This document shows, piece by piece, positions 8,604 through 26,025 of a stretch of DNA of 53,774 bases. Every line of letters starts with the position of its first letter. Position 1 is the first letter of the stretch. Position numbers and translations under genes: made by a program. The DNA lies in NCBI GenBank assembly GCA_017451645.1, contig JAFTNZ010000004.1, positions 1 to 53,774 of the forward strand, written 5' to 3'. The notes under the pieces were generated by a model. It saw only the letters and a program-made list of their open reading frames with translations, had not been told where the DNA came from and did no database searches. Source of the DNA: Bacteroidaceae bacterium. Lineage in GTDB: Bacteria > Bacteroidota > Bacteroidia > Bacteroidales > Bacteroidaceae.

Positions 8604-8634
8604 AACACTATCGCCTTTTTAGTGAGATTTTATA

Positions 8635-8712: not shown

Positions 8713-8776
8713 CCTTTCTTGCCATGTAGAAAGCAGTTTTCTTTCATAGAGTCCATGATTCCATCCGTCTTACAAT

Positions 8777-11749
8777 GTCTTAATCCTTATTATACCGGAA
8801 CACACTCTACGAGTATTGAGATCACCCCCGCCGCATGTCGTGCCCTGGCAGTCTCAATCCTTATTATACTGGAACACACTCTACGAGAAGGCAAAAGTTG
8901 TGGGGTTCGGGTCAGGGCGGGCGGTCTTAATCCTTATTATACTGGAACACACTCTACGAGTAGAGAAAATCGAAATCAAAACGATTACCGCCGGCAAAGT
9001 CTTAATCCTTATTATACTGGAACACACTCTACGAGATTGACCAAGTATGGGAGGATCAACCTGATTATTGTCGTCTTAATCCTTATTATACTGGAACACA
9101 CTCTACGAGCCATTAACAATTATTCACTTTATTAAAAATTAACAAGTCTTAATCCTTATTATACTGGAACACACTCTACGAGAATAGTAAAATTATGAAT
9201 AAAGTTAGAATTAACAGCGTCTTAATCCTTATTATACTGGAACACACTCTACGAGGGCAAATGCCCAAGGATTTCAATGAGGGTGAACGATACGTCTTAA
9301 TCCTTATTATACTGGAACACACTCTACGAGACCGGCAACACCGATGTAAAGAACCTTTGCATCAGCGTCTTAATCCTTATTATACTGGAACACACTCTAC
9401 GAGTTCCTATATGTCGGAGTGACCCCGCGGAGTTGAAAGCCGTCTTAATCCTTATTATACTGGAACACACTCTACGAGTCGTTTTATGAAACAATCAACA
9501 CAAAGTGTTGAACTGGTCTTAATCCTTATTATACTGGAACACACTCTACGAGTACAATTGAAAAACTAGAAATCAAAACCGTGAAAGTCTTAATCCTTAT
9601 TATACTGGAACACACTCTACGAGCAATGTTTTCTGAGGTTGAAGTAAAAAAAGCGATGGTCTTAATCCTTATTATACTGGAACACACTCTACGAGGAAAT
9701 ATCAAGGCGGTGACAGAGTTGGAAAATGAATTGTCTTAATCCTTATTATACTGGAACACACTCTACGAGTGTTTGACAGAATGGTTACTGCTTATCACAA
9801 CGCTGAGTCTTAATCCTTATTATACTGGAACACACTCTACGAGGAATGGTGTAAAGAAAAGAGAAAAGAAAAAAGAGCGTCTTAATCCTTATTATACTGG
9901 AACACACTCTACGAGATGACGACGCCTTGGAGGATGAGTAGGCTTTGCCTAGTCTTAATCCTTATTATACTGGAACACACTCTACGAGGGGAATGGGATC
10001 CCCAATTAGATCTATTTGAAGAAAAGTCTTAATCCTTATTATACTGGAACACACTCTACGAGTTATTCGTCGCTGCATGCTTCGCGACGTACCGAAACAG
10101 TCTTAATCCTTATTATACTGGAACACACTCTACGAGCTTGGACAAATGCCCAAGGATTTCAGCGAGGGCAAACGAGTCTTAATCCTTATTATACTGGAAC
10201 ACACTCTACGAGTCTTAGGAAACCTATCACAATAAACAGAGCCTGTAAGGTGTCTTAATCCTTATTATACTGGAACACACTCTACGAGATATGGAGAAAT
10301 GTCTTTTGAAGAATCTTTTGAAAGTCTTAATCCTTATTATACTGGAACACACTCTACGAGTATTGGCTCATTGCGTCAAAACGGATGGGGTATGATATGT
10401 CTTAATCCTTATTATACTGGAACACACTCTACGAGTATAAAGATGAAAGTATTTATGACAGCAAGAGAACAAGTCTTAATCCTTATTATACTGGAACACA
10501 CTCTACGAGCTTTGCGAATTAAGACGAAACAGCCTGCACTATCAGTGTCTTAATCCTTATTATACTGGAACACACTCTACGAGACCTCTACGAAACTCTG
10601 CACGAGGTGGAGTTGCACCGTCTTAATCCTTATTATACTGGAACACACTCTACGAGTGTGGGATATTTGAGAATAAACCGAATATAACAAATGTCTTAAT
10701 CCTTATTATACTGGAACACACTCTACGAGAGTGAAGACGATTTCCGAAAGAAGTATAGCGGGAAAGTCTTAATCCTTATTATACTGGAACACACTCTACG
10801 AGTGAAGAGTGCAAACAAAGAAGTAAAAAGTATTGTCTTAATCCTTATTATACTGGAACACACTCTACGAGGTGTTATGACAACAAATAATGATTCAGTA
10901 GTTGGAATGTCTTAATCCTTATTATACTGGAACACACTCTACGAGAAAGAGTTAATTATCGACCGAATCAGCACAAAAAGTCTTAATCCTTATTATACTG
11001 GAACACACTCTACGAGCGCTATCTTATTTTTGGAGAGAAGCGAGAAGGGATAGTCTTAATCCTTATTATACTGGAACACACTCTACGAGGAACACAAGAG
11101 CGGGAAATAGGTAATAACCGAGTATAGTCTTAATCCTTATTATACTGGAACACACTCTACGAGTAACGCCTGCTTTATTAAAAGATATACCTACATTGGT
11201 CTTAATCCTTATTATACTGGAACACACTCTACGAGGAATTTGATTCGTCAATCTTTGGCAGGGAAATGTGTGTCTTAATCCTTATTATACTGGAACACAC
11301 TCTACGAGCAAAAAACAGCTTTCCCCTGCTTTATTGAAGGACATGTCTTAATCCTTATTATACTGGAACACACTCTACGAGTACCAACGAACGATATAAC
11401 AACAATCGAGTATTAAGTCTTAATCCTTATTATACTGGAACACACTCTACGAGACAAACAAATCATTGCAGACAATCTGCAAAATAAGGTCTTAATCCTT
11501 ATTATACTGGAACACACTCTACGAGGAATGTGAATAAAGTTGTCAACCTTATTTCAAAAGAAGGTCTTAATCCTTATTATACTGGAACACACTCTACGAG
11601 TGGGGCGAATTATTATGAAATTGGAAGGATTGAGATGTCTTAATCCTTATTATACTGGAACACACTCTACGAGTCGTGTAGTTTCTTCCTCGCTTGTTGA
11701 GAAGTTCGATTTGTCTTAATCCTTATTATACTGGAACACACTCTACGAG
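8777..11749 (-). CRISPR. Type III-A CRISPR array, 41 repeats and 40 spacers
   Basis: The 37-bp repeat on the plus strand begins GTCTTAATCC and ends CACTCTACGAG. I counted 41 copies with spacers of about 32-39 bp. All are identical except the first two at the left end: 8777 (one change, ATACC for ATACT) and 8851 (GTCTC for GTCTT), as expected for the oldest, leader-distal end. Read on the minus strand, the repeat ends in ATTAAGAC, a good match to the 8-nt crRNA 5' handle (ATTGAAAC-like) left by Cas6. A leader with a promoter lies at the right end next to cas2. The array is therefore transcribed leftwards, and new spacers should enter at 11749. Three spacer pairs are related to each other (see findings). 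Confidence 0.98.
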
Positions 11750-11900: not shown

Positions 11901-12380
11901 TTAAAAGAATAGTGTATTCTTGGTTCGCATAATGATATCCACATCGATGGTCTTACCAATGATGCGCATGGATTTCAGTAAATCTGTGGAAACGGGGACA
12001 ACCAAAATGCTGTCTTCATTTTCGTAAAAGGCCTGTACTTCAGTCAGGTCTGAACGTATCTGTTCGTATTTCTCCGGTGAAAGGTCTGCCAGAAAGATGG
12101 AACGTTGGATGCGGAAGCACCCCATCTTCAACAGATATTTCGAAACCTGCTGACGTACCTTGTTGCTCTCTATATCATACATTACAAAAAACAGCATGTC
12201 CGTTACGTTCCTTTCTTTATTATTAGCAATACCTATGACTCTCTCAATCCGTTTCTCTATGCTTTCCAACGATTCCCAACCGTTGCTGGAGGTCGAAACC
12301 ATCTTGGAGCCTTGTACTCCTGCACGGTATAATTTGGCCAGCTTTTGTGGGAAGGTCAGTTCTTGCTTCTTTTTAGCCAT
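11901..12380 (-). CDS. cas2: Cas2 with N-terminal extension
   Basis: An adaptation nuclease-fold protein that bridges Cas1 dimers during spacer integration. The Cas2 core of about 98 aa starts near residue 62 (DMLFFVMYDIESNKVRQQV), with the conserved Asp69 at the end of beta-1 and the RSIFLADLS and DSILVVPVS strands. The 159-aa protein exceeds the usual 90-100 aa because of an N-terminal segment of about 60 residues that is basic and helical (KLAKLYRAGVQGSKMV, ESIEKRIERVIGIANNKER). The start codon overlaps the stop of the prim-pol-like gene by 8 nt (ATGGCTAA), so the extension is translated and coupled. The extension may contact the prim-pol protein or the integration complex; this is inference. 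Confidence 0.93.
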   Translation of the reverse strand: MAKKKQELTFPQKLAKLYRAGVQGSKMVSTSSNGWESLESIEKRIERVIGIANNKERNVTDMLFFVMYDIESNKVRQQVSKYLLKMGCFRIQRSIFLADLSPEKYEQIRSDLTEVQAFYENEDSILVVPVSTDLLKSMRIIGKTIDVDIIMRTKNTLFF

Positions 12381-13398
12381 ATCCTACAATTGTCTCTATG
12401 AAACCGTTTATCAGTTGCACCATCAACTCATTCAGTTCAGCAGATGTTCCGCCGCGTGGAGTCTGCACCACAGAGAAACCACGTTTGCCGTAGAACAGAT
12501 TGACTTCTGCTAATTTTTGTCCCATACGGAAGCGGAGTTTCTTGCCATATTGGATATTTACAACTTCGTAGAGCTGTACACCGGTTTCTTCTACGTATTG
12601 TTTCAATTCACCCATAATTTCATCCAATCGTTGGGGCACGTATGGAGCTGGTTTCTGCTTGGCTGTGACTTTGGGATTGAGCAATGCCTTTACCCGCTGC
12701 ATGACATCAGCGTCAGGGTCTATGCTCCGTTCTTCCTTTTCTGCAGACGAGGCTTGCTCTTTCATCTCCTTAGCCAGTGAGGTTTTCAAATCGAAAAGCA
12801 GACTCACATCATCCTTAGGCAGATAAAAGTTCATATCCACAGTTTCTGCATCAGGATTGTAATAGGCATCAGCATCAATACTGATAAAACAAGCCCTACA
12901 AACATCACTGGTACGTTCGTCTATGACCTGCTCCAAACCGTAGTGCATGGAGAAATCTTTCAGAAAGGCTTTATAGAACAGTGAATAAAGACCGGCATCA
13001 TAACACCGTTCCTTCAGATGGAACAGCACTTTCAATCCGTCTTCGCTGGGAGAGAGGAAACAGAGCATCACCCGAGGGTCGGCCTTCAGCCTCTCCTTAA
13101 TTGCGGCTATATCCAACCCCTTGTCATAGATGTGGTCGATATCCAATATAAAATATTCGGTATAGGCAAAGTTCTCGGTCCGGCGGTAAGGCGGATTGAA
13201 CATGCCACATACCACATAGGGTAACTGCCGCTTCAGCATAGAATACTGTTTGGTATCCAGATTGCGGATTATACGGAGCTGGTTCATCCGTGAAACAATT
13301 TCCGGTTTTGGGTTGCGCAGACTGTGGTAGAGGTAGCCCACCTTCACCTTATTCAAGGCATCTGCACTGCTGATGATGTTACTTCCAACAGACAACAT
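12373..13398 (-). CDS. CRISPR-associated primase-polymerase-like protein (BT4734/VirE-N type AEP)
   Basis: A 341-aa protein placed between cas1 and cas2. Its N-terminal half carries the archaeo-eukaryotic primase signature: motif I FILDIDH with Asp86 and Asp88, motif II SPSEDGLK (116-123, the S-x-G-h-H/K element), and a motif III region VIDERTSDVCRACFISIDAD (158-177). This resembles the BT4734-type prim-pol domain found in Bacteroidetes. CRISPR-associated prim-pols are known in some type III loci and have been linked to adaptation. A charged linker (205-250) leads to a C-terminal domain (about 255-341, YGKKLRFRMGQKLAEVNLFYG) that I cannot name. The stop overlaps the cas2 start by 8 nt, and cas1 ends 4 nt upstream. 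The likely role is to fill in or copy captured ends before integration; activity is inferred. Confidence 0.85.
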   Translation of the reverse strand: MLSVGSNIISSADALNKVKVGYLYHSLRNPKPEIVSRMNQLRIIRNLDTKQYSMLKRQLPYVVCGMFNPPYRRTENFAYTEYFILDIDHIYDKGLDIAAIKERLKADPRVMLCFLSPSEDGLKVLFHLKERCYDAGLYSLFYKAFLKDFSMHYGLEQVIDERTSDVCRACFISIDADAYYNPDAETVDMNFYLPKDDVSLLFDLKTSLAKEMKEQASSAEKEERSIDPDADVMQRVKALLNPKVTAKQKPAPYVPQRLDEIMGELKQYVEETGVQLYEVVNIQYGKKLRFRMGQKLAEVNLFYGKRGFSVVQTPRGGTSAELNELMVQLINGFIETIVGYG

Positions 13399-13402: not shown

Positions 13403-14383
13403 TTATTCGTATTTCTTGAACATTTGAGCTAACGATTGGGCATAAAGCTGTATCTGGGTAGCACGCGAGCGGGACACTCCCCGTTGGTTAATCACCTCTT
13501 CCAAATAATCGTTCATGGATTGGATGAGTACCCGACGGCCAAGTCCTTCCAACCAATAGGAACCATCTTCGCGTACCGAATAATAATCATCTGTTATCAC
13601 CCGTTGGGCAACCAGACTATATACTACATAATCTACCCAGATACGGTATATTTCAATGACATCATAGACCAGTACCGGTCGATTGTAGTCATCGCGGTGC
13701 ATGATACCCACGTATGGGTCAATACCGGCCTTTATCAGTGCTCCCTCAATCTTTCCATACAGGAGACCGTAGCCATAGTTCAGCAAAGCATTCACCACAT
13801 CCATGGCCGGATGTTGCGAACGGGCTGCAAAGCGGTACTCTTCGGGAATAAAATGGTTGAGTGTCTCAAAGTATATCTTCGAAGAAACTCCTTCCCAACC
13901 ACGTAGCTGCGAAGCTACATCAGAGACTATTTCACCGTCCAGCTTGGCAATCTTGGTGCGGTAGTCTTCCAAGCGCGATATGCTCTTGTTGCGTAAGTTG
14001 TCGATAGCAGTGTTTTCGGTACGCATCATCAGCAACAGAGCCTGTTGGTTCTCTATCTTTTGGGAGATAATCTCCTTTATCCAAAGAAGGGCATCTTTGG
14101 TAAAGGTAAAGTTCAATTGTCCTTTGCGGATGGTGGAGATGGAACCATATTTGGGACTCCACACCCTTCCGACAGGAGTTCCACCCTTGTCCATAAACAT
14201 AATCTCAATCTCATTCTCTATGGCCAGCATCACAGCATCGCTCGTTATCTGTGCACCCCGACTGATTTGTATCGATTTGATACCGATAACCGGTATGCGT
14301 TGGCGCCCATCCTTATGAGTGATGACAAAAGCCTCATTGTCGCGGCTGAGCGAAGTTCCGAAGGTATTTAGTACAAGTTCCAT
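13403..14383 (-). CDS. cas1: Cas1 integrase
   Basis: The metal-dependent integrase of CRISPR adaptation, 326 aa, of usual length. The N-terminal beta domain (about 1-85) is followed by the helical catalytic domain with Glu164 (RGWEGVSSKIYF), His229 (GIMHRDDYNRP) and Asp241/Glu244 (VYDVIEIYR). There is no reverse-transcriptase or Cas6 fusion, unlike some type III Cas1 proteins. It stands 19 bp after the helicase gene and 4 bp before the prim-pol gene, so the adaptation set is helicase-cas1-primpol-cas2. The start at 14383 gives the standard MELVLNTFGTSL N-terminus. Confidence 0.97.
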   Translation of the reverse strand: MELVLNTFGTSLSRDNEAFVITHKDGRQRIPVIGIKSIQISRGAQITSDAVMLAIENEIEIMFMDKGGTPVGRVWSPKYGSISTIRKGQLNFTFTKDALLWIKEIISQKIENQQALLLMMRTENTAIDNLRNKSISRLEDYRTKIAKLDGEIVSDVASQLRGWEGVSSKIYFETLNHFIPEEYRFAARSQHPAMDVVNALLNYGYGLLYGKIEGALIKAGIDPYVGIMHRDDYNRPVLVYDVIEIYRIWVDYVVYSLVAQRVITDDYYSVREDGSYWLEGLGRRVLIQSMNDYLEEVINQRGVSRSRATQIQLYAQSLAQMFKKYE

Positions 14384-14402: not shown

Positions 14403-15830
14403 TTACATTATCCAAAAATCATTGACTACGTACAGTTCTTTGCTGGCACGTGTCATAGCTGTATAAATCCACTGATAGACATAGGGTTTCTCTATACCTG
14501 GCAAGTTACGCGGAATATCAAGATAGACATGCTCCCATTCACCACCTTGTGCCTTATGACAAGTAAGTGCATAGCCAAAAACGGTACGCAAAGCATTCAA
14601 GTAAGGATCGCACATCATCATCTTATTGAACAGGTCGGTTCGTTGTCTGATGCCTTTAGCTTTCATGCGGATATAAAAGTCAATCAGCAATTCCTTCTGT
14701 TGTTCTTGCGACAGGTTTGTCTGGTTATGATATAGAATCTCAGCTATCAATAGTTGGGTATAGGTCTTCTTTGTCACTAACTCCTCTACACTTACTTTCA
14801 AGAAAGTAAGTCCGGCACGGCGTTCTTGAATCATTACTTCTTTGACAATTACTTGGTCGCCATTCATCAATCCTGATATGTAATTGTTCTGTGTGACAAG
14901 TAATAAGTCTCCAACTGACAGTTCATTGGAATGTATGCCAAAAGCCGGACGGAGAATTTGAGTCAGCGTATCGCATTGCTTGTTTGAATACCCTAATAAG
15001 GTTGCATTATTATACCCTTTCTCCTTAGCGCATTTGATATATCGGTTGATGAGGTCAGTCTGGCTATCCAAGATATGGATATTTTTGTAGTTTCGGAAAG
15101 GAAATTTGGCCCATTTCCATGGTTGGGGGTTAGCATAAAGTTGGCGCACCTTTTGTGCTGAGTGGACAATGTCATTTCCCTTTTGTTGGCGCATGACCTC
15201 TGTCAATTCCACTTCTTCAGCTTTCATATTGAATGCCTCTTTGAAGTAATTTACAGATAAGGCAGGGGAGAAGCGTTGGGTAATAGGAGGTAACTGACAA
15301 GTGTCACCAACGAAGACGAACTTCCCATTTGGGTTATATTGTAACAAGTCGTTAAGCAGCCGACCACTTCCAAACATAGCCTGTGTAGCCGTCTTGTCTT
15401 CTTTATCAGGGATCATGGATGATTCGTCAATCAAGTAATAGATTTCATCATCCGTCTGGATGGATTCCTGTGAGAATTGCAATAACAGTTGGTTGCCATT
15501 ATCTTTTCCCATTTTGTCTCTGAATGAAACCAATTCCTCCATATCCTGATTCAAATCATTATAGGTATAAATCAAGCTGTGGACAGTTTTCGTCTCTCGC
15601 TCTGTTATGTTCGAAAGAATTTTGGCCGCACGTCCGGTAGAGGCCAGCAGAGTGCAAGGCAAATTCCTTTTGCCAAGTTCCTCAATCAGGCACTTCATCA
15701 TCGTAGTCTTTCCCGTTCCGGCATACCCTTTGAGAATGAAAACCTGAAGAGACTTGTTACGGATAAATTCCACCATGCGATTGAATGCATGTTGTTGATG
15801 TGGAGTCAATTCTATCTTTTTCTTACTCAT
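14403..15830 (-). CDS. SF1B RecD/Dda-like DNA helicase in the CRISPR operon
   Basis: A 475-aa single-motor helicase, inferred to move 5'-3' on DNA. The Walker A motif is GYAGTGKTT (residues 35-43 from this start). Also seen are a Walker B DESS (YYLIDESSMI), motif III GDTCQLPPI, motif V ALTCHKAQGGEW and motif VI YTAMTRA. There is no nuclease domain and no long N-terminal region, so it is nearer Dda or the RecD2 core than full RecD. The chosen ATG at 15830 overlaps the previous gene's stop by 8 nt (ATGAGTAA); an ATG at 15848 would add six residues. Its place directly upstream of cas1, with translational coupling to an effector gene, argues for a CRISPR role such as unwinding or trimming prespacers. 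That role is inference. Confidence 0.9.
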   Translation of the reverse strand: MSKKKIELTPHQQHAFNRMVEFIRNKSLQVFILKGYAGTGKTTMMKCLIEELGKRNLPCTLLASTGRAAKILSNITERETKTVHSLIYTYNDLNQDMEELVSFRDKMGKDNGNQLLLQFSQESIQTDDEIYYLIDESSMIPDKEDKTATQAMFGSGRLLNDLLQYNPNGKFVFVGDTCQLPPITQRFSPALSVNYFKEAFNMKAEEVELTEVMRQQKGNDIVHSAQKVRQLYANPQPWKWAKFPFRNYKNIHILDSQTDLINRYIKCAKEKGYNNATLLGYSNKQCDTLTQILRPAFGIHSNELSVGDLLLVTQNNYISGLMNGDQVIVKEVMIQERRAGLTFLKVSVEELVTKKTYTQLLIAEILYHNQTNLSQEQQKELLIDFYIRMKAKGIRQRTDLFNKMMMCDPYLNALRTVFGYALTCHKAQGGEWEHVYLDIPRNLPGIEKPYVYQWIYTAMTRASKELYVVNDFWIM

Positions 15831-17559
15831 AACGTCTGAATCTTTCAAATTGGAAAATCACTTCGCCTTTCCGTCCTGCGCTCTCTTCCTTGACTATACG
15901 TTTGGAAGTAGAGGCTACACACGGAATGCCATACTCTTGCAAACGTTTCAGCAATGCAAAGGTGAAGGTAAGTTCACCCATCAGGTGAACGGTCACATTA
16001 TTATCTTTGGCAAGGTCAAGAATCTTTTGAAGGTACTCATCGGCCAAAGATGATATATATGTTTCATTATCCGTTTCGTCAATCATGGGAAAAGGCATAT
16101 CCATGATTTCTCCATAGGCATGTGCTGCTTCCAGTTGTTTGTCACACCATAAGGATGATGGGTGATTGGTAAGGTTGAGGAAGATGGATTTAAGCTCAAT
16201 CTTTTTTTCTATACTAATAAATGACTTTTTGGCAATATCTAAGCATTTGTTAAAAAGTACATCAAATTCTCTTACGAACGTTTCGTAATCTACATCACCT
16301 TTTCCATGATTGACAGAATTTCGTTTCTCTCCAAGTTGAGAGAAATATGGTCTAAGTTCATTTATAATAGGTTCTTTTAGTAGTAAATCGGTTGTTTTTA
16401 TATTATCCTTAAGTGAGCCTTTATAATTTCTATTTTTCACATCATCATCTCCAATACTACAGATAGAACTTATAAACATTCTGAATTTTTTCTTTCCATC
16501 TTTATTTATTCGATATGGAGAATAGCTTGCATACTTATTAGATATTAAAGTTATTATATATTCTTGTCCCATCGTATATGCTTGTGGTAGCATTTTATAA
16601 TGTTTAGCCCATGATATTGCAGCCTCTATATTTTTGTAACTTTTAGTTGGAACAAAACCAAAATCTGTAAGTTTTTCACGTACCCGATTTAATATGTCTT
16701 TAATTGGAGTAGGTATATTTTGTCTTTTTATTGGTTTTACAGAATTATTGATCACAAGCATATATTTTCCTTGCTCAATTTCTGAGATTCTGTTTGTCAG
16801 CAAAGCATTATCAAAATTTTCAAGTGACTTATGAACATCTTCAATTATTTGACTTGTTTCTGATATTTCATCTTTCAAAGCTTTACTTAATTTCTTTATT
16901 CTCCCAAATGTAGTAAACGAACTTGCGATATCAGTATATTGCTGCAGTCTTATCAGATTAGTTAAATTTAAAACTGGAGCAATACGTTCTTCTAACGGTA
17001 TCTCCTTTTTAACTTTATATGCTGTACCTAATTTCTCGAATGCCCCATAGTGGATACTTTTGATATTTATCCTTTTCATGAAGCCTGCATAATTGAAAAG
17101 AATTGTAGAGAACATTGGTATAGAACGGAATGCATGAGTAACATCGAAGTACAATTCATCATTCTCATGTAAATGTTTATATACTTCATCAAAAATATTC
17201 CAAACTTCCTTTTCGCTAAAGCCATCTTCTATTTGGTGCATTGACACAATATCCCAAAACTTAGTATTACGTAAACGGCTTTCCAATCCAATCTTTTCTA
17301 TTTCTTCAATAACCTGATTGGGTTTATCAGGGTCAACATGTCCATTATCATTCCAATTCTTTCTAATGGCTTCTGTTGTACAAAAAATAAGTATTTTATC
17401 GTTTTCTATCCAATCATTGCATAGCACTTTAATCAAAGCTTCTTGGATAAATCTAACAGGCTCTGATATATATTCATTTGAAAAGCGGTATTTACAATTT
17501 ACATAGTTCCCTGTTCCTAAAAAGGATATAAATACTTTTCGTGCCATAATTCTAAGCAT
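15823..17559 (-). CDS. CARF-HEPN ribonuclease (Csx1/Csx2, TM1812-type) with extra C-terminal domain
   Basis: A 578-aa ancillary nuclease of type III immunity. The N-terminal CARF domain begins KVFISFLGTGNY and contains the DxTHG-type motif DVTHAFR (139-145), which binds cyclic oligoadenylate made by Cas10. A HEPN domain follows with RNSVNH (413-418, the R-x4-H RNase motif), so the protein is predicted to cut RNA when activated. Residues from about 458 to 578 form an additional domain (SIFLNLTNHPSSLW, AAHAYGEIMDMPFP, VHLMGELTFTFALLKRL) not needed for CARF-HEPN function. I recognise it only as a type III-associated pattern and cannot name it. A start at 17547 (MARKVF) is possible; the ATG at 17559 gives the 8-nt overlap with card1 seen at other junctions here. 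Confidence 0.9.
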   Translation of the reverse strand: MLRIMARKVFISFLGTGNYVNCKYRFSNEYISEPVRFIQEALIKVLCNDWIENDKILIFCTTEAIRKNWNDNGHVDPDKPNQVIEEIEKIGLESRLRNTKFWDIVSMHQIEDGFSEKEVWNIFDEVYKHLHENDELYFDVTHAFRSIPMFSTILFNYAGFMKRINIKSIHYGAFEKLGTAYKVKKEIPLEERIAPVLNLTNLIRLQQYTDIASSFTTFGRIKKLSKALKDEISETSQIIEDVHKSLENFDNALLTNRISEIEQGKYMLVINNSVKPIKRQNIPTPIKDILNRVREKLTDFGFVPTKSYKNIEAAISWAKHYKMLPQAYTMGQEYIITLISNKYASYSPYRINKDGKKKFRMFISSICSIGDDDVKNRNYKGSLKDNIKTTDLLLKEPIINELRPYFSQLGEKRNSVNHGKGDVDYETFVREFDVLFNKCLDIAKKSFISIEKKIELKSIFLNLTNHPSSLWCDKQLEAAHAYGEIMDMPFPMIDETDNETYISSLADEYLQKILDLAKDNNVTVHLMGELTFTFALLKRLQEYGIPCVASTSKRIVKEESAGRKGEVIFQFERFRRYE

Positions 17560-18646
17560 TGATATTAAATAGTTCGTTGTTGAGTAGAAGATGAAGAGCT
17601 TCTTCGTTTGTCATATTAAAATGATTATCTTGCAGAGAGTATGTGAGAATTTTGTAATCCTCGCATTTTTCTCTAGCTCTATCTGTCATGGGAGTATTCG
17701 TAACAAAAAGAGATTTACAACCTGTGCCTCCATAGTTCCTAACTGCAGAATTGAATTTGTCAATGTCTGTGTTGTCTTCTATCTGGGTTTTACACTCTAC
17801 AAAAAGAAGTTTTTTTCCTGTATTCACAATGATGTCTATTTCATTTTTTGTTGCACTATCTTTATATGGGAATGTACAATTCATCCTTATTTCTATAGCG
17901 TGTTCCCAAGAAGAAATAATAGAAGCAATCCTATATTCAAACCATCCAGCTTTTAATAAAAGATGACGAACATTCTTTGATTTGAGTGTCTTTTTAAGGG
18001 AAATGCCCTTTTTGATTATATTGAAGTAAAATTGTTTGTTTGAAACATCCCATTTGAGATATGAACCATTGGGTAGGTGATGCTCTATTTCATTGCTTCT
18101 ATCACGCATGCGGGCGATTAAGCGGAAAAAGGTTTCTTTATTATAATCATGTAATTCTATGATTTTCAGAACAACATCCTTATCTTCTGTTGAAATATCA
18201 TGGAATCTTATATATTTATCCAATGAATTTCCATATAAGTTCAAATGAACATCTACATCAATATTGATTGTCTCAAAGGTCTTATTTGAGAAATTCCACA
18301 CTTTGTTGTTCTGGTCTACGTAAAAAAGTGTAGCATTTGGCATAAGTGAAAAAATCTTTGAGAAATAAAATGCCCATGGCTTTGTTCCACTTGATATGTT
18401 TATAGAAATCTTCTCGTTCCTAAAATCTTCAGCACATTTTTGCACGTCCCGTTCAATTTCTTCAAGATTAACTGGATCAAATTTTCGTTTTTCAGACTCA
18501 ATCTTTATTTCGGTTGATAATCTTTCAGTCTCTTCTCTCGTCCTATCTGAATATATATATATGATTTTATCAGGATTAGTATAAACTATTCCGTTATATA
18601 CAGGGGCTGTTTGTCCACCTACCAATGTAATATGTATCTTGCTCAT
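17552..18646 (-). CDS. card1: Card1/Can2-type CARF nuclease
   Basis: A 364-aa cyclic-oligoadenylate-activated nuclease. The CARF domain at the N-terminus (ITLVGGQTAPVYNGI; NISSGTKPW at 83-91) is joined by a small helical domain to a C-terminal PD-(D/E)xK domain. Catalytic residues are visible: Glu237 (WFEYRIASI), Asp271 (NEIDII) and Glu284-x-Lys286 (FVECKTQ). Card1/Can2 proteins are known to nick or cut single-stranded or supercoiled DNA (and some RNA) upon cA4 binding, giving dormancy or plasmid and phage clearance. Length matches Card1 (about 370 aa). It sits 23 bp after the inserted ATPase gene and is coupled by an 8-nt overlap to the CARF-HEPN gene, so both effectors should be made together. 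Confidence 0.92.
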   Translation of the reverse strand: MSKIHITLVGGQTAPVYNGIVYTNPDKIIYIYSDRTREETERLSTEIKIESEKRKFDPVNLEEIERDVQKCAEDFRNEKISINISSGTKPWAFYFSKIFSLMPNATLFYVDQNNKVWNFSNKTFETINIDVDVHLNLYGNSLDKYIRFHDISTEDKDVVLKIIELHDYNKETFFRLIARMRDRSNEIEHHLPNGSYLKWDVSNKQFYFNIIKKGISLKKTLKSKNVRHLLLKAGWFEYRIASIISSWEHAIEIRMNCTFPYKDSATKNEIDIIVNTGKKLLFVECKTQIEDNTDIDKFNSAVRNYGGTGCKSLFVTNTPMTDRAREKCEDYKILTYSLQDNHFNMTNEEALHLLLNNELFNINA

Positions 18647-18669: not shown

Positions 18670-20010
18670 TTACACATTCTGTTCCAAAATCTTCTCTATT
18701 TGCCCTACATAGTAGAAGGGTATATTCAGCAGTTTGAATGTCTTTCCATTTGGTGTTTTTACTTCATCTATGGAGAAGGGATTCGACCATATTCTGATGG
18801 CAATGTTGTGAGAAACCATGTCCATATAGATGTGTAAGGACTTCAGCTTGGCATTGTGTCCCGATTTTACCTCGATAGGAATCAGCATACTTTGGTACTG
18901 ATAGAGGAAATCGATCTCTGCATCGGACCCTTGTTTGTCTCTACGCCAATAATTGCGATGCAATGACAGACTGTTGTCGTAGGCTACTAACTCTTGTGCT
19001 ACAATATGTTCGGCTATACGTCCCCGCCATACATCGCAGATGTCTGCTGTAGAGAACACATCGTGCTGTACTCCTGATGCATAGTTGACCAATCCCGTGT
19101 CGAACCACAACAGTTTGGGACGTTTCCGGAAATTCTGCATCAGAGGAATCTGGGTGTCCGAAGTCGGATAAACAAGTTCGGTAAGCATAGCTTTGGCAAT
19201 CGTTTGGAAAGCTTCGCTCATTTCACGTGAACGGCAGGAAGTTCCTCCAAATCCTTCAAACGAAATGGTTTCAGCCGCACTCTTCCAACCATTATCCAAG
19301 ATTGAGCGGATAACCTTTATTTGATTGACACTATTAGTATATTTTTCTACATCGTCCTTGTATGCCTGTATCAGTGACTGATAAATATCAGCACATGAAA
19401 GGATGTCCCGCTTCTCTGCATATTGTACAATCGCTGCAGGCATACCACCAACCAATGTATATTCTCTGAACAGGCGCATCACCCGTTCGTGAACAATCGG
19501 TTGGACATCCAAATTCTTGATGTAGTCAATATCAAAAGTTTCACCTATGCCGTCCAAAAACTCTAAGAACGAACAGGGCCTTAACAACATGAACTGTACA
19601 CGCCCCACGGGGAAAGAAATTTTCCGCACATCCATCACCGTCTCTAACAGAGAGCCTGCCACGATAACGTGTATATGGTTGGCCTCTTCATAGAAGTAGC
19701 GCAAGATAGCTACCGCCCGTTTGGAGTTCTGTATTTCATCGATGAACAGCAATACTGTACCTTCTCTCTGCACCTGTTTCTTATGCATATACATCGACCG
19801 GAGAAGCTGTTGCACGTCGTCCGTCTGTTCAAAAAGCATACGGTCACTCTCACGTTCAAGATTCAAATGAAGGAAACAATCATATTCCTTGGCAAACTCC
19901 GTCACAACAGTTGTCTTTCCCACTTGGCGTACGCCACGCAGGATAAGAGGCTTTCTATTTGGTGACACCTTCCATGCTCTAAGTTTCTCTAATATAGTCC
20001 GTTTTATCAT
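18670..20010 (-). CDS. AAA ATPase with DUF4143 nuclease-like C-terminus
   Basis: A 446-aa protein. The N-terminal AAA domain has Walker A (RGVRQVGKTT, about 25-34) and Walker B (LLFIDEIQN). The C-terminal DUF4143 domain carries a PD-(D/E)xK-like set, AEIDFLY then IEVKSG. Such genes are common and mobile in Bacteroidales; function is poorly known and linked to defence or selfish elements. It interrupts an otherwise continuous csm5-card1 order. It has its own promoter with three 33-bp-spaced palindromes and lies behind a 47-bp hairpin that follows csm5. The same promoter motif survives as a relic at 7168-7282. The effector and adaptation genes downstream may now be transcribed from its promoter. 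Confidence 0.9.
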   Translation of the reverse strand: MIKRTILEKLRAWKVSPNRKPLILRGVRQVGKTTVVTEFAKEYDCFLHLNLERESDRMLFEQTDDVQQLLRSMYMHKKQVQREGTVLLFIDEIQNSKRAVAILRYFYEEANHIHVIVAGSLLETVMDVRKISFPVGRVQFMLLRPCSFLEFLDGIGETFDIDYIKNLDVQPIVHERVMRLFREYTLVGGMPAAIVQYAEKRDILSCADIYQSLIQAYKDDVEKYTNSVNQIKVIRSILDNGWKSAAETISFEGFGGTSCRSREMSEAFQTIAKAMLTELVYPTSDTQIPLMQNFRKRPKLLWFDTGLVNYASGVQHDVFSTADICDVWRGRIAEHIVAQELVAYDNSLSLHRNYWRRDKQGSDAEIDFLYQYQSMLIPIEVKSGHNAKLKSLHIYMDMVSHNIAIRIWSNPFSIDEVKTPNGKTFKLLNIPFYYVGQIEKILEQNV

Positions 20011-20203: not shown

Positions 20204-21349
20204 TTACAAGATTGATAATTTTACAAATCCGAATATATCACTATCTTCATCCAACCTTCTTGATTTGGGAAAATCATATTGCTGATATTTATGATTCCCA
20301 GGACGAGATGCTGGAACAATTATATCTTTAAAGTTATCTAACTGCTCAGCCCATGCTCCTGTAATGAAACGCCATCCCGAAGCATGTCCGATACGCAGGA
20401 TGCATTCTTTCCCTTGGATACATGAATTGAATTGTTGAAGGATTTCATTCATTCTTTCTAAATAATCTTCTGCACCACTGTATTGATCATTCTTCAACTC
20501 TGACCAGATATCTATTTCATCTTTTACCAATTTCTTAGTATGGTTGTTAATGAGTTTGAATAATGAATGTATATCAGCCATTTCATTGGGAAATGTGCCT
20601 AAGGATTTAGTTTTTCCTGTTATATTAGGCCAATGAGCCTTAACCCAATCATAATAAGTTTTATCTATATTCATTTGAATAACAGAGTCGTAATCAGGAG
20701 CTATTGCTTCTATGATTTGCGGTTTACTTGAATCCATTAAATCATTACGTTCTCTGATATTCAAATTTATGATTCGGGAAGAAATTTCACATCCTTCTTC
20801 AAAATAGGCATCTCCAATTTTTATGAATCGGAATATGTCGCTATTGGAATCGCTTCCAAACAGTTTTGCTTCAACCTTTTTTGCTTCAACCTTAGTTTTA
20901 CCAGTCCTAAAGTTCTTTTCAGCAACAATAGATTCCAAGTCATTCATTTGCCGAGCAAAAGTAGTGAGTACAGCAGTGCGAACGGCCCCTTTTATAGAAC
21001 TGCCGGGAATATAAGCTCTACCTAAACCATCATGCATACATTCTTTTAGTGTGTCATTTGGGCGAACGGAATGTGCATAATTTACTAATGTGCGCAGAGC
21101 ATATTTTTCTGGGGCTGCATTGTGTCCCATTCTTTGGACGAAATCTTTAGTGTCTCCGTTCCGTTCAATCAATCTTACCCAATCATCAAGATGTTCTATG
21201 CCAATCAAATTTAATATTTTTTTGGGGTCAATCACATAAATATAGGAATCTTCGCCATCGTTGTGTTGTACGAAGTCGGAGTTATTTCGTAAAAAGTTTC
21301 CACTGCCTATATGAACGGGCGTTAATGTTTCTATCTTTACTTTACTCAT
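20204..21349 (-). CDS. csm5: Csm5, type III-A effector subunit
   Basis: A RAMP protein of 381 aa that caps the crRNA 3' end of the Csm complex. The RAMP fold starts VKIETLTPVHIGSGN. The YIPGSSIKGAVRTAVL motif (113-128) is the conserved glycine/serine loop of Csm5, and the second RAMP half ends in a Lys/Arg-rich tail. It immediately follows csm4 (2-bp gap). It is the last subunit gene before the inserted ATPase, and its distinct position at the operon's 3' end is usual for type III-A. Confidence 0.93.
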   Translation of the reverse strand: MSKVKIETLTPVHIGSGNFLRNNSDFVQHNDGEDSYIYVIDPKKILNLIGIEHLDDWVRLIERNGDTKDFVQRMGHNAAPEKYALRTLVNYAHSVRPNDTLKECMHDGLGRAYIPGSSIKGAVRTAVLTTFARQMNDLESIVAEKNFRTGKTKVEAKKVEAKLFGSDSNSDIFRFIKIGDAYFEEGCEISSRIINLNIRERNDLMDSSKPQIIEAIAPDYDSVIQMNIDKTYYDWVKAHWPNITGKTKSLGTFPNEMADIHSLFKLINNHTKKLVKDEIDIWSELKNDQYSGAEDYLERMNEILQQFNSCIQGKECILRIGHASGWRFITGAWAEQLDNFKDIIVPASRPGNHKYQQYDFPKSRRLDEDSDIFGFVKLSIL

Positions 21350-21351: not shown

Positions 21352-22335
21352 TTATTCTATTATTACAGGTACAGTCAGCGGTTTGCCACTTCGATATACC
21401 GGATGCATTCGATTGTCATTATAATCAGTTGGGCACAAGTTTACAATCTTACCTTGTAATGGTTGTGATGTTTTTAAGATAGAGCCACTCTGAAACATAT
21501 AGATAGACTTTTTACGTAAATGCCAAAAATCATTTTCCATGCTTCCTGCCATGTATCCACCCCGCTGTATCAATTCAAATCGGGAGTTAGTCAAATCAAG
21601 AGTACACATTTCCTCATTCTGGGGTATATACAAAGAGAGCAACATGTGTGTGTCCGACTTTTTATCAGGCAAAGAAATGTTTGTTTTGTCAACTGTAAAT
21701 TTTCCACCTCCGATGTTCTTGTCTGTGCCTATTCCATTTTCGCCTAAAATGTGGAATAAATCAATCAACTCATCAAGTAGTTCACCTTGAGCATCTGTCA
21801 GACAATACAGACCGGCTTCTTTGTCGAAGAATGTCCAATCAAAGAAAAATGGTTCAGCATCTTGCCCATCAGCACGTGGTACAGCCACCCGTTGATTAAC
21901 TATGGATTTATATGGCTTTTTGAATGAAGAATCTGAAACAGGCAACAAAAAACCATCTTTTAGTTGGTTGGATTGAATATGAACATCTTTACCAGAAATC
22001 AATTCACTCCATAAGCCCTGTTCAATAAAGCGGATGGTTTTCAATTTCTTTCGGGATGTGTATTCCTCACAATCGTCAATGAAAACATTGATTTTTCCAA
22101 GTGGACGCGGAAGGAAATAATATTCCGCATAATAAGGGAATGCAGAACTGAGCGAAAAAGATTCCAAGAAATCAGCGATGTCATCTTTCTCCCCTTGTTG
22201 CACTCTTATTGAAGCCAATGCCGCTGAAAGCGTGTCGCTTTGCAATTGGGATGCAGAAAAATCATAGTTTTCTTTGCCTGTTCCCATGTGCAAAGGCGAC
22301 ATGTCTTTCAGTTTGATAATGGTGTATGTTGCCAT
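21352..22335 (-). CDS. csm4: Csm4, type III-A effector subunit
   Basis: A Cas5-like RAMP subunit, about 327 aa, that holds the crRNA 5' handle and contacts Cas10. It begins MATYTIIKLKDMSPLHMGTG, has the SDTLSAALASI segment typical of Csm4 near residue 40, and contains a Gly-rich loop GIGTDKNIGGGKF. The ATG at 22335 is chosen because it lies one base after the csm3 stop and gives the family N-terminus; a start at 22362 would add nine residues inside csm3. Confidence 0.93.
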   Translation of the reverse strand: MATYTIIKLKDMSPLHMGTGKENYDFSASQLQSDTLSAALASIRVQQGEKDDIADFLESFSLSSAFPYYAEYYFLPRPLGKINVFIDDCEEYTSRKKLKTIRFIEQGLWSELISGKDVHIQSNQLKDGFLLPVSDSSFKKPYKSIVNQRVAVPRADGQDAEPFFFDWTFFDKEAGLYCLTDAQGELLDELIDLFHILGENGIGTDKNIGGGKFTVDKTNISLPDKKSDTHMLLSLYIPQNEEMCTLDLTNSRFELIQRGGYMAGSMENDFWHLRKKSIYMFQSGSILKTSQPLQGKIVNLCPTDYNDNRMHPVYRSGKPLTVPVIIE

Positions 22336-22336
22336 A

Positions 22337-22966
22337 TCAATATGTTTTTTCTTTAGGTTCATTGAGTGTGATTTCTACTTGACCATAACCACGTGAACCA
22401 TGTCCGCCCAAATAGTCATCTTGTAATAATTGAATTGCTTGCTGCAATGTTTCCTTTAATCCTTGTTCATCCTCACCTTCAAAGATGTTGAGTACCATAT
22501 TCAGACAGAATTGAGCACCAGCAGGTACACGTTCGAAGGTTCGGGGATTAGCTTTAGCTGTAACACGATCAATAGCAACCTCTGTTTTACTTTCTGTATA
22601 AGGAAGATCGGTATTACTGAAATCACATGAGTTTATGTCTAGCTCTGCATCACGTACAATAAGTCTAGATGCATGACTCTGTTCATTATCTCCTGAGACC
22701 CCAAACAAAGCTCCTGCTTTATGCAAAGGATTGTTGGTAGGTTTTCCTCCATTAGTTTCTCCATTACAAATTTCAACCAATGCTCTCATTTTACCTTTTA
22801 AAGAGCTGCCTGGTATATAAGGCCTGTTATTTATCGGATTACGAACTACAAATTTATCAGGGCCACCAATATTTAATGCAGCATTGGTTCCACCAATATG
22901 TAAGCCCGTTTTTAAAGTAATAACGCCACTGTATATAACTTTCTTTATTAATTTTATTGTTGCCAT
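22337..22966 (-). CDS. csm3: Csm3, backbone and target-RNA nuclease
   Basis: A 209-aa Cas7-like backbone subunit, present in several copies per complex, that cuts bound target RNA at 6-nt steps. The N-terminal LHIGG, the likely catalytic Asp37 (GGPDKF) and the YIPGSSLKGKMRAL motif (51-64) are all intact, so target RNA cleavage should be functional. The C-terminal Gly-rich loop GGHGSRGYGQV is normal. It has the usual length for Csm3 and sits between csm2 and csm4. Confidence 0.95.
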   Translation of the reverse strand: MATIKLIKKVIYSGVITLKTGLHIGGTNAALNIGGPDKFVVRNPINNRPYIPGSSLKGKMRALVEICNGETNGGKPTNNPLHKAGALFGVSGDNEQSHASRLIVRDAELDINSCDFSNTDLPYTESKTEVAIDRVTAKANPRTFERVPAGAQFCLNMVLNIFEGEDEQGLKETLQQAIQLLQDDYLGGHGSRGYGQVEITLNEPKEKTY

Positions 22967-23002: not shown

Positions 23003-23476
23003 CTAATCTTTACCGCCATATGCTTTATGATACGCCAAAATGGCTTCGATAAAATTGCAGAAGTTTTGATATGACTTCTGATCAATTACATCTGTAAAAC
23101 ATTTATCAAATATCAGTTTGAATAATTTTAATCCTTGATTCTTATCATCACGTCCTAGTGCATAGGCGACTTTGGGCTTTAACAAATAGAATGAGGCTTT
23201 TTCTTTTTCAAATTCTCCCATTTGAATTCGTTTAATTTCTCCATAAATACTTCGTATTTTTGAATTAGTCAAATTGTTGTCAGCCATATACTTTCCTGCA
23301 GATTCTGCATAAACAACCATTTCATGGGTAGCTTCTTGCTTAATCCATTCATTATTATACTGTAGTTTGGAGAAATACGATTCCGCATTCTCTTTAGGCT
23401 CATTACCTTTGAATCCGCTAAAACCATTATTTCTTGGTCCAGAATTCATAAATCTTTCTCTTTTTGGTTGATCCAT
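23003..23476 (-). CDS. csm2: Csm2, small subunit
   Basis: The 157-aa alpha-helical small subunit that lines the target-RNA channel of the Csm complex. After a disordered, Asn/Gly-rich N-terminus of about 30 residues come helices with the Csm2-like segments AESAGKYMADNNLTNSKIRSI and PKVAYALGRDD. It lies 17 bp after cas10 and 36 bp before csm3. Family assignment rests on these motifs and on gene order. Confidence 0.9.
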   Translation of the reverse strand: MDQPKRERFMNSGPRNNGFSGFKGNEPKENAESYFSKLQYNNEWIKQEATHEMVVYAESAGKYMADNNLTNSKIRSIYGEIKRIQMGEFEKEKASFYLLKPKVAYALGRDDKNQGLKLFKLIFDKCFTDVIDQKSYQNFCNFIEAILAYHKAYGGKD

Positions 23477-23493: not shown

Positions 23494-26025
23494 TTATTCT
23501 TTATCTTTTCTATACTCTAATTCTGCCCATCTGGCGGCAAATGTCCACAGTTCCAATGGATGATAATCCGATTGAATGCAGTTTCCATTCAACATACCAA
23601 GGGACTTGTCACATATCTCTTTTATACAATTCTCTATTAATTGGTTGATTTTAGAATTCTTATTATGACGTTCTTTCATTCTGCTTAAGTCGTATGTCAG
23701 CATCCAAAATGTTTTGTAATTGGTTATTTTATGCTCTTTGATTTCTGCATTTGCATGATGAGCCATCAGTTTTGACAAGAATGATTTAGGTAAAGTATTT
23801 TCTTTTAATAAGTCACACAGTTCAGTCTTTAATTGCTCAACAATATAAAATTCCTCATCCCAATTCAAGGGCATATCCATGAATGAAATTGCATTCTTTG
23901 TTTGGGATTTGCAGGTATGATTCTTGGCTTTACTCTCTTCCTGAGCACTCTCTTCTGCTCCTTTCATGATTGGATATTTGGGAGGAAGAATCGCTATACC
24001 ACCCGATAGAGAAAATGTCGGATTCAGGCAAGTAAATTCTGAGAAATCTTCTTTAATTTTTTTTGAAAGTTTGATGGTGACATCCCAACTGCCAACGATG
24101 AAAACATCATCGCCTCCACTATAAATGATGAATGAACGTTCAGGGGCTGTTTCTTTCCAAATGGTATTGAGGTATCCTGAAAAGAAATAGTCAAACGAAC
24201 GGCTTAATGCTGCATAGCGGGAAAGTGTGGCTCGTTCTGTCGGAATACCCTTTTGGAATATCAAGCCTAAATTGTCCACATCCATACGAAGAACTCCCAA
24301 ACGGGACAAATTCTTATTTTCACACATATCTTCGAATGTTTGGATGTTCTTGTGGTCTATTTCATTTCCGCCATAGAACTCAAGACCGTAAATATTGTTT
24401 ATTCCATTCAAAGTATGTAAGAAGTCACAATCGCCATTAGTTCCATTCATGGTGAGAACTGTCACTTCATCTGCCGAAGCGCTCAGTTTCTCTTTCATTT
24501 TCTCCAATTCCTCTTTACTGTCTAAGAAATAGTAGGTGAATCCCAAAGATGCAGGAGAAATATGTACTCTGTCTTTCCAATAGCTTAAAGGTTCACCTTC
24601 CTTAATAACGAGCAGATTGGTTTCTCGCAATTTTTTGCCGATTTCTATTTGGCAAGCTGTGATTTCTTTTAATATCAAACCACTTTTTTCTTTGACAATC
24701 TCATTGGTCTGGAATTCTTCACCTGTTATGCTGTCACGTTTGGCTTCCCCTCCCACCATGGATGCTTCAAAAAATGATGAGTATTCTGTTTGGATGAGAG
24801 AAGCAAACTTGGTGGCTTTTTTCTTATCTCTTTTTATAAATAACTCACCCCAAACTTTTCCCAAATGTTCTCCTCCTCGATGCATAAGTGCATCTTTTGA
24901 CAACTCAATGCTGTCGATAGCAACGTAAAGTGTTGGTCCATGAGTCGCGAACAATTGTTTTTCTATCGTTTTGATAGCTTGCTCCAATTGTTTTTTTACA
25001 AAAGAAGTATTGGGAGCCAATAAATAAAAGCCTCCACCTGAATTATAAATAACATTGGCTTGAAATAGATGCAGTTGTTTTAATAAATATCGAACTATAG
25101 TATCCGACAAAATACGTAAATAGAAAGAACGTCCTTTTAGATTCTTTCCAGCATGTTTGGACACTATCTGATAAATGTATGATTGAATACCGCTAAAGTC
25201 TGCTCCTATCAGTAAGAAAGGATTTCCTTCGTTCCCCTTTTCTTGTTGGTAATCATATAAACATACAGCCAATGCGGCAGTCGTCTTCAAATGGTCATAC
25301 AATGATACATCAGGAAAATTGATAGTGCTTGCAGGGATTGTTGTGGCATATTTGTATAGCAGATTAAGTAATGTTTCTGAGAATGCCCGATAGGTATTTG
25401 CCTGAATAAATTTGAATTCTTGGATAAATTCCTTCCAAAGCGTAGCATAATCGGGATTGTTCTCAAAAGACGGCTGAGGAAAATAATTTTTGCTCAATTC
25501 CATTTTCCTTACAGGTTGGTGCATCCATTCGTTGGAGGATACATTTTTACTTGACGTGCGGATGGTTTGAAGTATTGAAATCATTCGTTTTTTCTTGAAA
25601 GCATCCCAGGAAGTCTCCATTTCATCTTGTGAATCCTTTAATGCTTCATCACAACTTCTGTCCATACCAGAGGACAAACAATCGGCTTCTTTGATGATAT
25701 TTCCCAAATCAGAAAGCTGTTCAGACTTCAAGTGGTGTCCTGCCGCCAGATTTATTAAGTTATCTTTTATAGACAAATTACTGATATCTGCATTTACTAA
25801 AGATTTGAATACTGGGGCAAAGTCTTCAATAAACTGTGCAGTCCATAATACATGTTTGTGAGTGTAAAATCTGTTTAATCCTTGTGGACAAAACGAAGAC
25901 TCAACCTTACAATGCTCTTTTAAATATTTGCTGTCACGTACACTACCGACGTCCGCCCTCTGATAAAACTTGCCGATGTCGTGCAGCAGTGCAGCCAAAT
26001 AAATATGTTCTCTGATTGATTCCAT
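23494..26025 (-). CDS. cas10: Cas10/Csm1, signalling and DNase subunit
   Basis: The 843-aa large subunit. An N-terminal HD nuclease domain (ALLHDIGKF, His15-Asp16) for ssDNA cleavage and a second-palm GGDD motif (residues 637-640, YSGGDDVFIV) for cyclic-oligoadenylate synthesis are both intact. So target RNA binding should trigger both DNA cutting and signalling. The cA products would activate the two CARF proteins downstream. Length and layout match Csm1, not the Cmr2 of type III-B. The gene follows cas6 by 11 bp. Confidence 0.97.
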   Translation of the reverse strand: MESIREHIYLAALLHDIGKFYQRADVGSVRDSKYLKEHCKVESSFCPQGLNRFYTHKHVLWTAQFIEDFAPVFKSLVNADISNLSIKDNLINLAAGHHLKSEQLSDLGNIIKEADCLSSGMDRSCDEALKDSQDEMETSWDAFKKKRMISILQTIRTSSKNVSSNEWMHQPVRKMELSKNYFPQPSFENNPDYATLWKEFIQEFKFIQANTYRAFSETLLNLLYKYATTIPASTINFPDVSLYDHLKTTAALAVCLYDYQQEKGNEGNPFLLIGADFSGIQSYIYQIVSKHAGKNLKGRSFYLRILSDTIVRYLLKQLHLFQANVIYNSGGGFYLLAPNTSFVKKQLEQAIKTIEKQLFATHGPTLYVAIDSIELSKDALMHRGGEHLGKVWGELFIKRDKKKATKFASLIQTEYSSFFEASMVGGEAKRDSITGEEFQTNEIVKEKSGLILKEITACQIEIGKKLRETNLLVIKEGEPLSYWKDRVHISPASLGFTYYFLDSKEELEKMKEKLSASADEVTVLTMNGTNGDCDFLHTLNGINNIYGLEFYGGNEIDHKNIQTFEDMCENKNLSRLGVLRMDVDNLGLIFQKGIPTERATLSRYAALSRSFDYFFSGYLNTIWKETAPERSFIIYSGGDDVFIVGSWDVTIKLSKKIKEDFSEFTCLNPTFSLSGGIAILPPKYPIMKGAEESAQEESKAKNHTCKSQTKNAISFMDMPLNWDEEFYIVEQLKTELCDLLKENTLPKSFLSKLMAHHANAEIKEHKITNYKTFWMLTYDLSRMKERHNKNSKINQLIENCIKEICDKSLGMLNGNCIQSDYHPLELWTFAARWAELEYRKDKE

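Follow-up and report, generated by a model that had tools for sequence, protein, structure and literature searches.

What does a primase-polymerase do between cas1 and cas2, and what is the domain at its carboxyl terminus? The question is raised by a type III CRISPR locus in the window, as we call the whole stretch of 53,774 nucleotides analysed here (Bacteroidaceae bacterium, assembly GCA_017451645.1, contig JAFTNZ010000004.1, positions 1 to 53,774). How type III systems choose and build their prespacers is largely an open question. Prim-pols and reverse transcriptases (RT) are the CRISPR-borne polymerases proposed for this, and the window locus shows only the prim-pol. Its gene has the ATG at 13398 and the TAA at 12375-12373 of the minus strand and codes for 341 residues. 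It begins 4 nucleotides after the stop codon of cas1 (13403-13405) and overlaps by 8 nucleotides cas2, which starts at 12380, a placement already given in a reading of the DNA letters alone (hereafter the sequence-only reading). The product is a CRISPR-associated primase-polymerase of type B (CAPP_B), and its carboxyl-terminal domain (residues ~255-339) appears to be related to the TBP-like lobe found in RNase HIII, in RnlA and in the TBP-TOTE tails of RecD-like helicases.

Membership of the CAPP_B family is indicated by matches far above chance. NCBIfam model NF040562, "CRISPR-associated primase-polymerase type B", scores 432 bits against a cut-off of 200 (E 1.4e-129) and aligns residues 2-333 of the protein to positions 1-334 of its 335, while Pfam BT4734-like_N (PF08800) gives E 6.3e-19. 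These profile searches, of the kind that the sequence-only reading had proposed, uphold its view of an AEP-type prim-pol of the BT4734/VirE_N branch, tied to adaptation in a type III locus. The class was described by Zabrady 2021 (PMC8211822) with, as prototype, DbCAPP from a Dysgonamonadaceae bacterium. DbCAPP is a VirE_N-type AEP protein of ~340 residues, and its gene lies between cas1 and cas2 in a type III locus that has a RecD-like gene close by. The window protein shares all these traits, and a comparison by published description revealed no decisive difference. According to the same source DbCAPP makes GTP-started (ribonucleotide) primers and extends them with DNA. It interacts with Cas1 in two-hybrid and pull-down assays and with Cas2 in two-hybrid assays, and Cas1 in turn interacts with the RecD-like protein. 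By analogy, the window protein would have DNA primase/polymerase activity and bind Cas1. Given the NF040562 match and the DbCAPP precedent, the gene is an ordinary member of a known family, and neither its location nor the role proposed for it is new; two plasmid relatives already carry the NF040562 name in their annotation. CAPP_A proteins (MpCAPP of Marinitoga piezophila and the RT-CAPP fusions) are also prim-pols tied to Cas1-Cas2 in type III loci but differ by fusions to TPR, RT or helicase parts and, in MpCAPP, perhaps by a PriCT domain; none of these appears in the Pfam scan of the window protein.

The sequence-only reading had the enzyme copying or filling prespacer ends, possibly from RNA. 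Making or filling prespacers is the role that Zabrady 2021 proposes for the CAPP family, but an RNA template is disfavoured because DbCAPP prefers DNA, its activity on RNA templates being much lower (PMC8211822). In RT-CAPP fusions it is the RT domain that acts on RNA (PMC10415136), and Pfam gave no RT match among the ten window proteins scanned. The type III context is in keeping with an enzyme that copies captured RNA into DNA, an idea that we nevertheless judge highly improbable and have rejected as leading explanation.

The NF040562 cut-off is passed in 3 of 395 genomes drawn from the phylum and in 20 of 393 drawn from the order, the genome of the window being in both draws. A named genome collection provided 4 further loci, of which 3 were used, and PLSDB 2 plasmids. 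The resulting alignment holds 28 full-length proteins (23 loci in 22 genomes, window included, 3 contigs of the named collection and the 2 plasmids), all matching NF040562. It leaves out L034, whose gene is split over two frames, and L054, whose gene runs off its contig. L110, with its long insert, and L118, L140 and L180, whose aligned tails were spurious, were removed between A3 and A4. Gene order is cas1-CAPP-cas2 in 24 of the 28 loci, the exceptions being L073, where the contig ends, L079, where a helicase gene separates CAPP from cas2, and the two plasmids, which are rearranged. cas1 and cas2 are each found in 27 loci, the missing ones lying at contig ends.

Ten residues of the catalytic part are invariant in all 28 members (D86, D88, S116, P117, G121, K123, D160, D165, R168 and D175), and all but D165 are also kept in 16 viral AEP relatives. 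The D-x-D at 86/88 and the S-x-x-x-DG-L-K loop at 116-123 singled out by the sequence-only reading are real, except that the aspartate of its "DG" varies (position 120 is D in 20 members, N in 5, E in 2 and Q in 1). Judged by sequence and prediction, the AEP active site of the window protein is intact, with the catalytic carboxylates D86, D88 and D175 in place. The AEP part is also what relatives in viruses match: a phage collection gave one weak match to it, and IMG/VR has at least 443 stretches with a relative, and in the 80 that were kept the match does not extend past residue 226. A scan of IMG/VR for the C-terminal domain returned 14 pattern matches, none confirmed.

Residues 255-341, which the sequence-only reading set apart and left unassigned, do form a separate conserved domain and can now be related to a known fold. 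I282, N300, G304 and G307 are invariant and positions 302 and 303 aromatic in 28/28 members, and the domain has the motifs I-x-Y-G-K-K and A-E-x-N-x-F-Y-G-K-K-G. A scan of the phylum revealed two genes matching NF040562 by its carboxyl-terminal part alone, both under its cut-off: an RNase HIII, whose identity was confirmed, through its N-terminal domain (E 4.8e-4), and a RecD-like helicase through its tail (E 6.7e-4). Comparison by hhalign of the 28 C-terminal domains with the TBP-TOTE tails of 12 RecD-like proteins gives Prob 96.8 and E 3e-10, and with 11 RNase HIII N-terminal domains (10 distinct genes) Prob 91.6 and E 8.2e-7. None of 200 column shuffles reached as high in either case, and the control comparison with CAPP's own AEP domain gives Prob 0.6. 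The RecD tails come from the 14 of 296 phylum genomes with a TBP-TOTE match at E 0.001, minus G148, an RNase HIII, and G216, without open frame; the 12 examined were thus chosen by that match. Since PF11858, the model of the RNase HIII N-terminal domain, matched nothing in these 296 genomes, TIGR00716 was used instead (14 of 148 genomes); among 16 candidate RNase HIII loci, 5 lacked the active-site motif and were dropped, leaving 11 rows in which L056 and L189 are one gene. With the RecD-tail profile the window CAPP is retrieved at E 5e-7, and Pfam TBP-TOTE is found in 12/28 members at E up to 0.1 (best 8.5e-4). Pfam RnlA_toxin_N appears weakly in 2/28 members and the other ten extra families in one member each.

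AlphaFold2, given the window protein, three close relatives and sixteen viral AEP stretches, models the whole protein with mean pLDDT 88.5 and pTM 0.65. The C-terminal domain modelled alone, with the three relatives, reaches pLDDT 90.6 and pTM 0.81 and is predicted as one lobe of a helix, four strands and a helix. The five best PDB matches of this lobe in Foldseek are all Escherichia coli RnlA (prob 1.00, TM 0.53-0.57, rmsd 3.3-3.5; 80 aligned columns with 20-22% identity), and among viral matches an RNaseLS-like protein ranks first. RNase H3 and RnlA are given as bacterial proteins with a TBP lobe in a 2020 study, which also emphasises a conserved aromatic residue (PMC7221094). With the N-terminal domain of RNase HIII (PMC4132731) CAPP_B shares a monopartite TBP-like lobe and an aromatic-G-K-K-G hairpin besides the profile match, but that domain is fused to a nuclease. 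RnlA (RNase LS), the best structural match, differs in being an mRNA-cutting anti-phage protein and not part of a polymerase. The carboxyl terminus of CAPP_B (~220-337) is termed "diverse" in PMC8211822. Its relation to the TBP-like fold appears to be new, in so far as it was not found in the open-licence PMC literature searched, and connects an entire class of prim-pols, through their tail, with a fold by which RNase HIII reads RNA/DNA hybrids, which leads to testable point mutants.

We consider it probable that CAPP_B is a DNA prim-pol by which prespacers for Cas1-Cas2 are made or completed, and that its TBP-like lobe grips a primer/template duplex started with a ribonucleotide. The enzyme would be a DNA-templated DNA primase-polymerase. 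In cooperation with Cas1-Cas2, and by way of Cas1 with the RecD-like helicase, it would make captured single strands of DNA into double-stranded prespacers, fill integration gaps, or do both. The predicted lobe would sit on the minor groove of the fresh duplex, whose 5' end is a ribonucleotide, in the place taken in other prim-pols by Pri2-CTD, PriX or the C-terminal domain of CAPP_A, and might measure the duplex or pass it to Cas1-Cas2. We propose such a clamp, by analogy, because the N-terminal domain of RNase HIII lies across the minor groove of the RNA/DNA hybrid in the structure of that enzyme (PMC4132731), because CAPP strands start with a ribonucleotide, and because a C-terminal module touches the primer start in other prim-pols (PMC10345425). 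A restricted version would have CAPP only complete the half-integrated array, with no part in prespacer making. Strand displacement is stated for CAPPs and resolution of integration intermediates is one of their proposed roles (PMC8211822), but priming de novo with a ribonucleotide start would then be needless and we find this version distinctly unlikely.

A number of observations weigh against the proposed relation and role of the lobe. In the RNase HIII comparison a single shuffle came up to Prob 78.8, which makes this link less secure; with the RNase HIII profile the window CAPP is retrieved only at E 0.17 and the best member, L033, at 8.6e-6. Pfam TBP-TOTE misses its cut-off of 27 bits with the window protein (14.6 bits, E 0.024) and with the other members that it matches, and DUF7277, an unrelated family present as a singleton in one member, scores as well as TBP-TOTE (4e-4). 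PDB sequence profiles gave no relevant match to either the C-terminal domain or the whole protein. The Foldseek matches of the domain to RnlA have E 0.012-0.032, above 0.001, and RNase HIII is not in its top 50. No Foldseek match of the whole model reaches E 0.001. The top matches include a D5 primase-helicase (E 0.0024, prob 0.69), LigD polymerase domains (prob 0.77-0.99, TM only ~0.25-0.31), RnlA on the C-terminal domain (prob 1.00) and, at low probability, Prim-PolC and vaccinia D5 AEP, among unrelated proteins such as yeast Csm1. The structure prediction put forward in the sequence-only reading has thus retrieved AEP enzymes, all above E 0.001; because these matches are weak, the AEP assignment rests on the sequence families and not on Foldseek. 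Concerning the role, the catalytic core of CAPP_A primes without its C-terminal domain (PMC10345425), the net charge of the CAPP_B domain is about zero, and an in vivo spacer-acquisition test of a CAPP was not found in the literature searched. Finally, Glu27 and His28 of RNase HIII align with Lys286 and Lys287 of CAPP and the Gln-Gly turn, which RNase HIII uses together with Glu27 to read the 2'-OH, is not kept, according to a sequence alignment, not a structural one, in which Ta-RNase H3 was placed by hand.

This last point bears also on whether the lobe could recognise true RNA/DNA hybrids (R-loops, transcripts on DNA) and steer CAPP to transcribed invader DNA. Type III interference requires transcripts, and spacers acquired in this way would come from sites that the system can target later. 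The isolated N-terminal domain of RNase HIII bound the hybrid, weakly, and neither double-stranded DNA nor double-stranded RNA (PMC4132731; Figiel and Nowotny 2014), and TBP-like lobes are found in RNase LS/RnlA and in TOTE sets (PMC3710099, PMC12458937). We regard hybrid recognition as rather unlikely: the residues that read the 2'-OH in RNase HIII are not kept in the CAPP alignment, and a search with the 40 array spacers gave no hit in the phage collection at E 0.01.

A further feature of these loci concerns Cas2. All 27 Cas2 proteins encoded beside CAPP_B are extended at the N terminus by ~53-72 residues that follow a common pattern (starts set by script), and their stop-to-stop frames measure 155 residues or more. 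Among the matches listed for Cas2 of the order, a hand count gave frames below 150 residues in 144 of 150, with no CAPP locus represented among the 150. The extension is a possible docking peptide for CAPP or Cas1. The lobe could also be a docking domain for Cas1 or Cas2 instead of a nucleic-acid clamp, catalysis being as proposed above. Its small size, the near-zero charge, the binding of DbCAPP to both proteins (PMC8211822) and the Cas2 extension as possible partner surface all fit. We hold docking to be somewhat unlikely, in that the best-conserved positions of the lobe (the aromatic pair and Gly-Lys-Lys-Gly) fall in the strand and hairpin that make the nucleic-acid contacts of TBP lobes and are common to RNase HIII. 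RNase HIII is not known to have a Cas partner.

The helicase expected to cooperate with the prim-pol, through Cas1, has full-length RecD-like genes near the cassette in 10 of the 28 loci, and one more is cut by a contig end. These ten have no TBP tail, since they end within 26 residues of the helicase match. In a tree they group with a copy of genome G414 (L272; ~16 kb from its CAPP) with values of 98/93, while 13 RecD copies from elsewhere in CAPP_B genomes, labelled here "housekeeping", form a separate group (100/100). The 13 copies likewise have no TBP tail, so that a tail-less RecD is nothing special by itself. The tree left out L239 and L240 (no RecD match at its threshold) and L270 and L271 (no RecD gene). 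It does not settle the place of the RecD-TBP proteins, and a history in which the CAPP-linked RecD lost its TBP tail is unsupported. A PIF1-like helicase is found in the place of the RecD-like one at the cassettes of L079 (2148-4598, between CAPP and cas2) and L064 (5742-7832). The profile of the CAPP C-terminal domain also detects, at 1.5e-5, a RecD-like protein with a single TBP-like tail (L268, 3-1817) in genome G411, which has CAPP_B on another contig.

TOTE systems are named after their TPR, OB, TBP and Effector parts (PMC12458937). The 12 TBP-TOTE proteins examined are RecD-like helicases with a TBP tail, L239 and L240 being only distantly RecD-like, and in 11 of them a TPR-OB-type gene adjoins the helicase gene. 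The twelfth (L238, RecD-TBP at 429-2519) lies beside cas2, cas1 (type I-B-like), a putative cas4-like ORF, a Cas_NE0113 CARF gene and csx20 (below cut-off) at 2714-7190. This TBP-bearing helicase thus stands in a CRISPR adaptation module, with no CAPP in the 8 kb read. The pair of RecD-TBP and TPR-OB corresponds to the PADLOC candidate PDC-M16: the L057 helicase matches PDC-M16A over its length, and its partner matches PDLC01170 best and PDC-M16B weakly.

TPR-OB-type genes also occur in the cas gene row of 14 of the 28 CAPP_B loci, all 14 having been scanned with Pfam and PADLOC. They lie near cas1, CAPP or cas2 in L058, L063, L070, L071, L074, L075, L076, L077, L080, L083 and L084. In G724, G614 and G746 they are found directly ahead of cas6, where this row begins, 15-19 kb from CAPP. 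Nine of the 14 proteins match PDC-M16B and, over its cut-off, DUF7017; Pfam S1CSD-TOTE is over its cut-off in seven (L058, L070, L083, L084, G724, G614, G746) and below it in L063 and L074. The other five (L071, L075, L076, L077, L080) have no S1CSD-TOTE and match PDLC01170, "TPR fused to cold shock-like domain", a model whose 5 matches in the 22 CAPP_B genomes are all within ~1.1 kb of the CAPP gene. Many CAPP_B contigs are short, and absence of TPR-OB from the remaining loci is weakly tested. The row head of G724 also holds a RecD-TBP gene matching PDC-M16A with 352 bits. In L269 the frames of RecD-TBP, TPR-OB (S1CSD-TOTE-2) and cas6 overlap head to tail (4685-8848) at the beginning of a type III gene row whose last genes are cas1-CAPP-cas2.

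CAPP_B loci could be TOTE-type conflict systems with the CRISPR adaptation machine as effector. The TBP lobe on the prim-pol, together in many relatives with a TPR-OB partner and a RecD helicase, would read a hallmark structure of invader nucleic acid, either an RNA/DNA hybrid or a duplex begun with a ribonucleotide, and guide Cas1-Cas2 in recording it in the array. We advance this view tentatively, as one that may well prove wrong. RecD-type helicase and TBP-like lobe are common to both kinds of loci, but in CAPP_B the lobe is on the prim-pol and the ten nearby full-length RecDs have no TBP tail, and the window locus lacks the TPR-OB protein. PF22860 and PDLC01170 have 0 matches in the genome of the window (G000, 72.6% complete). 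In the 22 CAPP_B genomes two DUF7017 matches over cut-off (G541:C80, G646:C119) are unlinked to CAPP as far as the contigs show, five more below cut-off lie elsewhere (G646:C110, G659:C61, G614:C44, G541:C217, G651:C4), and the row of G614 includes a gene on the opposite strand. PDLC01170 is among the PADLOC models, and a tie of this family to CRISPR may be known already. An assignment of the CAPP_B catalytic domain itself to AEP-TOTE (PF22548) was rejected, this family being absent from the matches of the window protein at E up to 1. The recurrence of TOTE-type parts in CAPP_B relatives appears new with respect to the open-licence PMC literature searched. Found in half of the loci examined, these parts link CRISPR adaptation to a separate anti-virus family and, together with the assignment of the tail, give the loose notion of an "adaptation polymerase" a form that can be tested.

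The window locus is a complete type III-A system (Table 1). Its minus-strand order is cas6, cas10/csm1, csm2, csm3, csm4, csm5, the AAA_14/DUF4143 gene, the Card1-like CARF-PDDEXK gene, Csx1-Csx20, the RecD-like helicase, cas1, CAPP, cas2 and the array.

Table 1. Positions in the window of the CAPP_B gene, its predicted domains and the surrounding CRISPR locus.
Feature	Position	Strand	Evidence
CAPP_B primase-polymerase gene, 341 aa	12373..13398	-	NF040562 432 bits; Pfam BT4734-like_N; AlphaFold2
AEP (VirE_N/BT4734-like) catalytic domain, residues ~1-200	12799..13398	-	Pfam, 28-member alignment
Putative TBP-like C-terminal domain, residues 255-339	12382..12636	-	hhalign, AlphaFold2, Foldseek, weak Pfam TBP-TOTE
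cas1	13403..14383	-	Pfam 231 bits; TIGR00287 250 bits
cas2, 159 aa	11901..12380	-	Pfam and TIGR cas2 matches from residue 62 on
Cas2 N-terminal extension, residues 1-61	12198..12380	-	comparison of CAPP_B-linked Cas2
RecD-like SF1B helicase, CAPP-linked clade, without TBP tail	14403..15830	-	family matches, tree
Csx1-type CARF-HEPN fused to Csx20	15823..17559	-	TIGR02221; PADLOC CARF_HEPN_CSX20 393 bits
Card1/Can2-like CARF-PDDEXK nuclease	17552..18646	-	PF23400 CARF_Card1; PADLOC CARF_PDDEXK 413 bits
AAA_14/DUF4143 gene	18670..20010	-	between csm5 and CARF genes
csm5	20204..21349	-	TIGR01899
csm4	21352..22362	-	TIGR01903
csm3	22337..22966	-	TIGR02582
csm2	23003..23476	-	PF03750
cas10/csm1	23494..26025	-	TIGR02578 609 bits
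cas6 (Cas6b type)	26037..26738	-	PF17262 / PF17955
CRISPR array, 41 repeats of 37 nt, 40 spacers	8777..11749		repeat search

The two variant repeats of the array, at 8777 and 8851, are at its end distal to cas2, and the leader is therefore taken to lie beside cas2. The Csx1-Csx20 fusion is found also in L031 and L064, as judged by match span, the two parts being separate neighbouring frames in many relatives. A repeat of 87 nucleotides (80% identical) is present at the start of the AAA_14/DUF4143 gene (19996-20082) and at 7137-7223.

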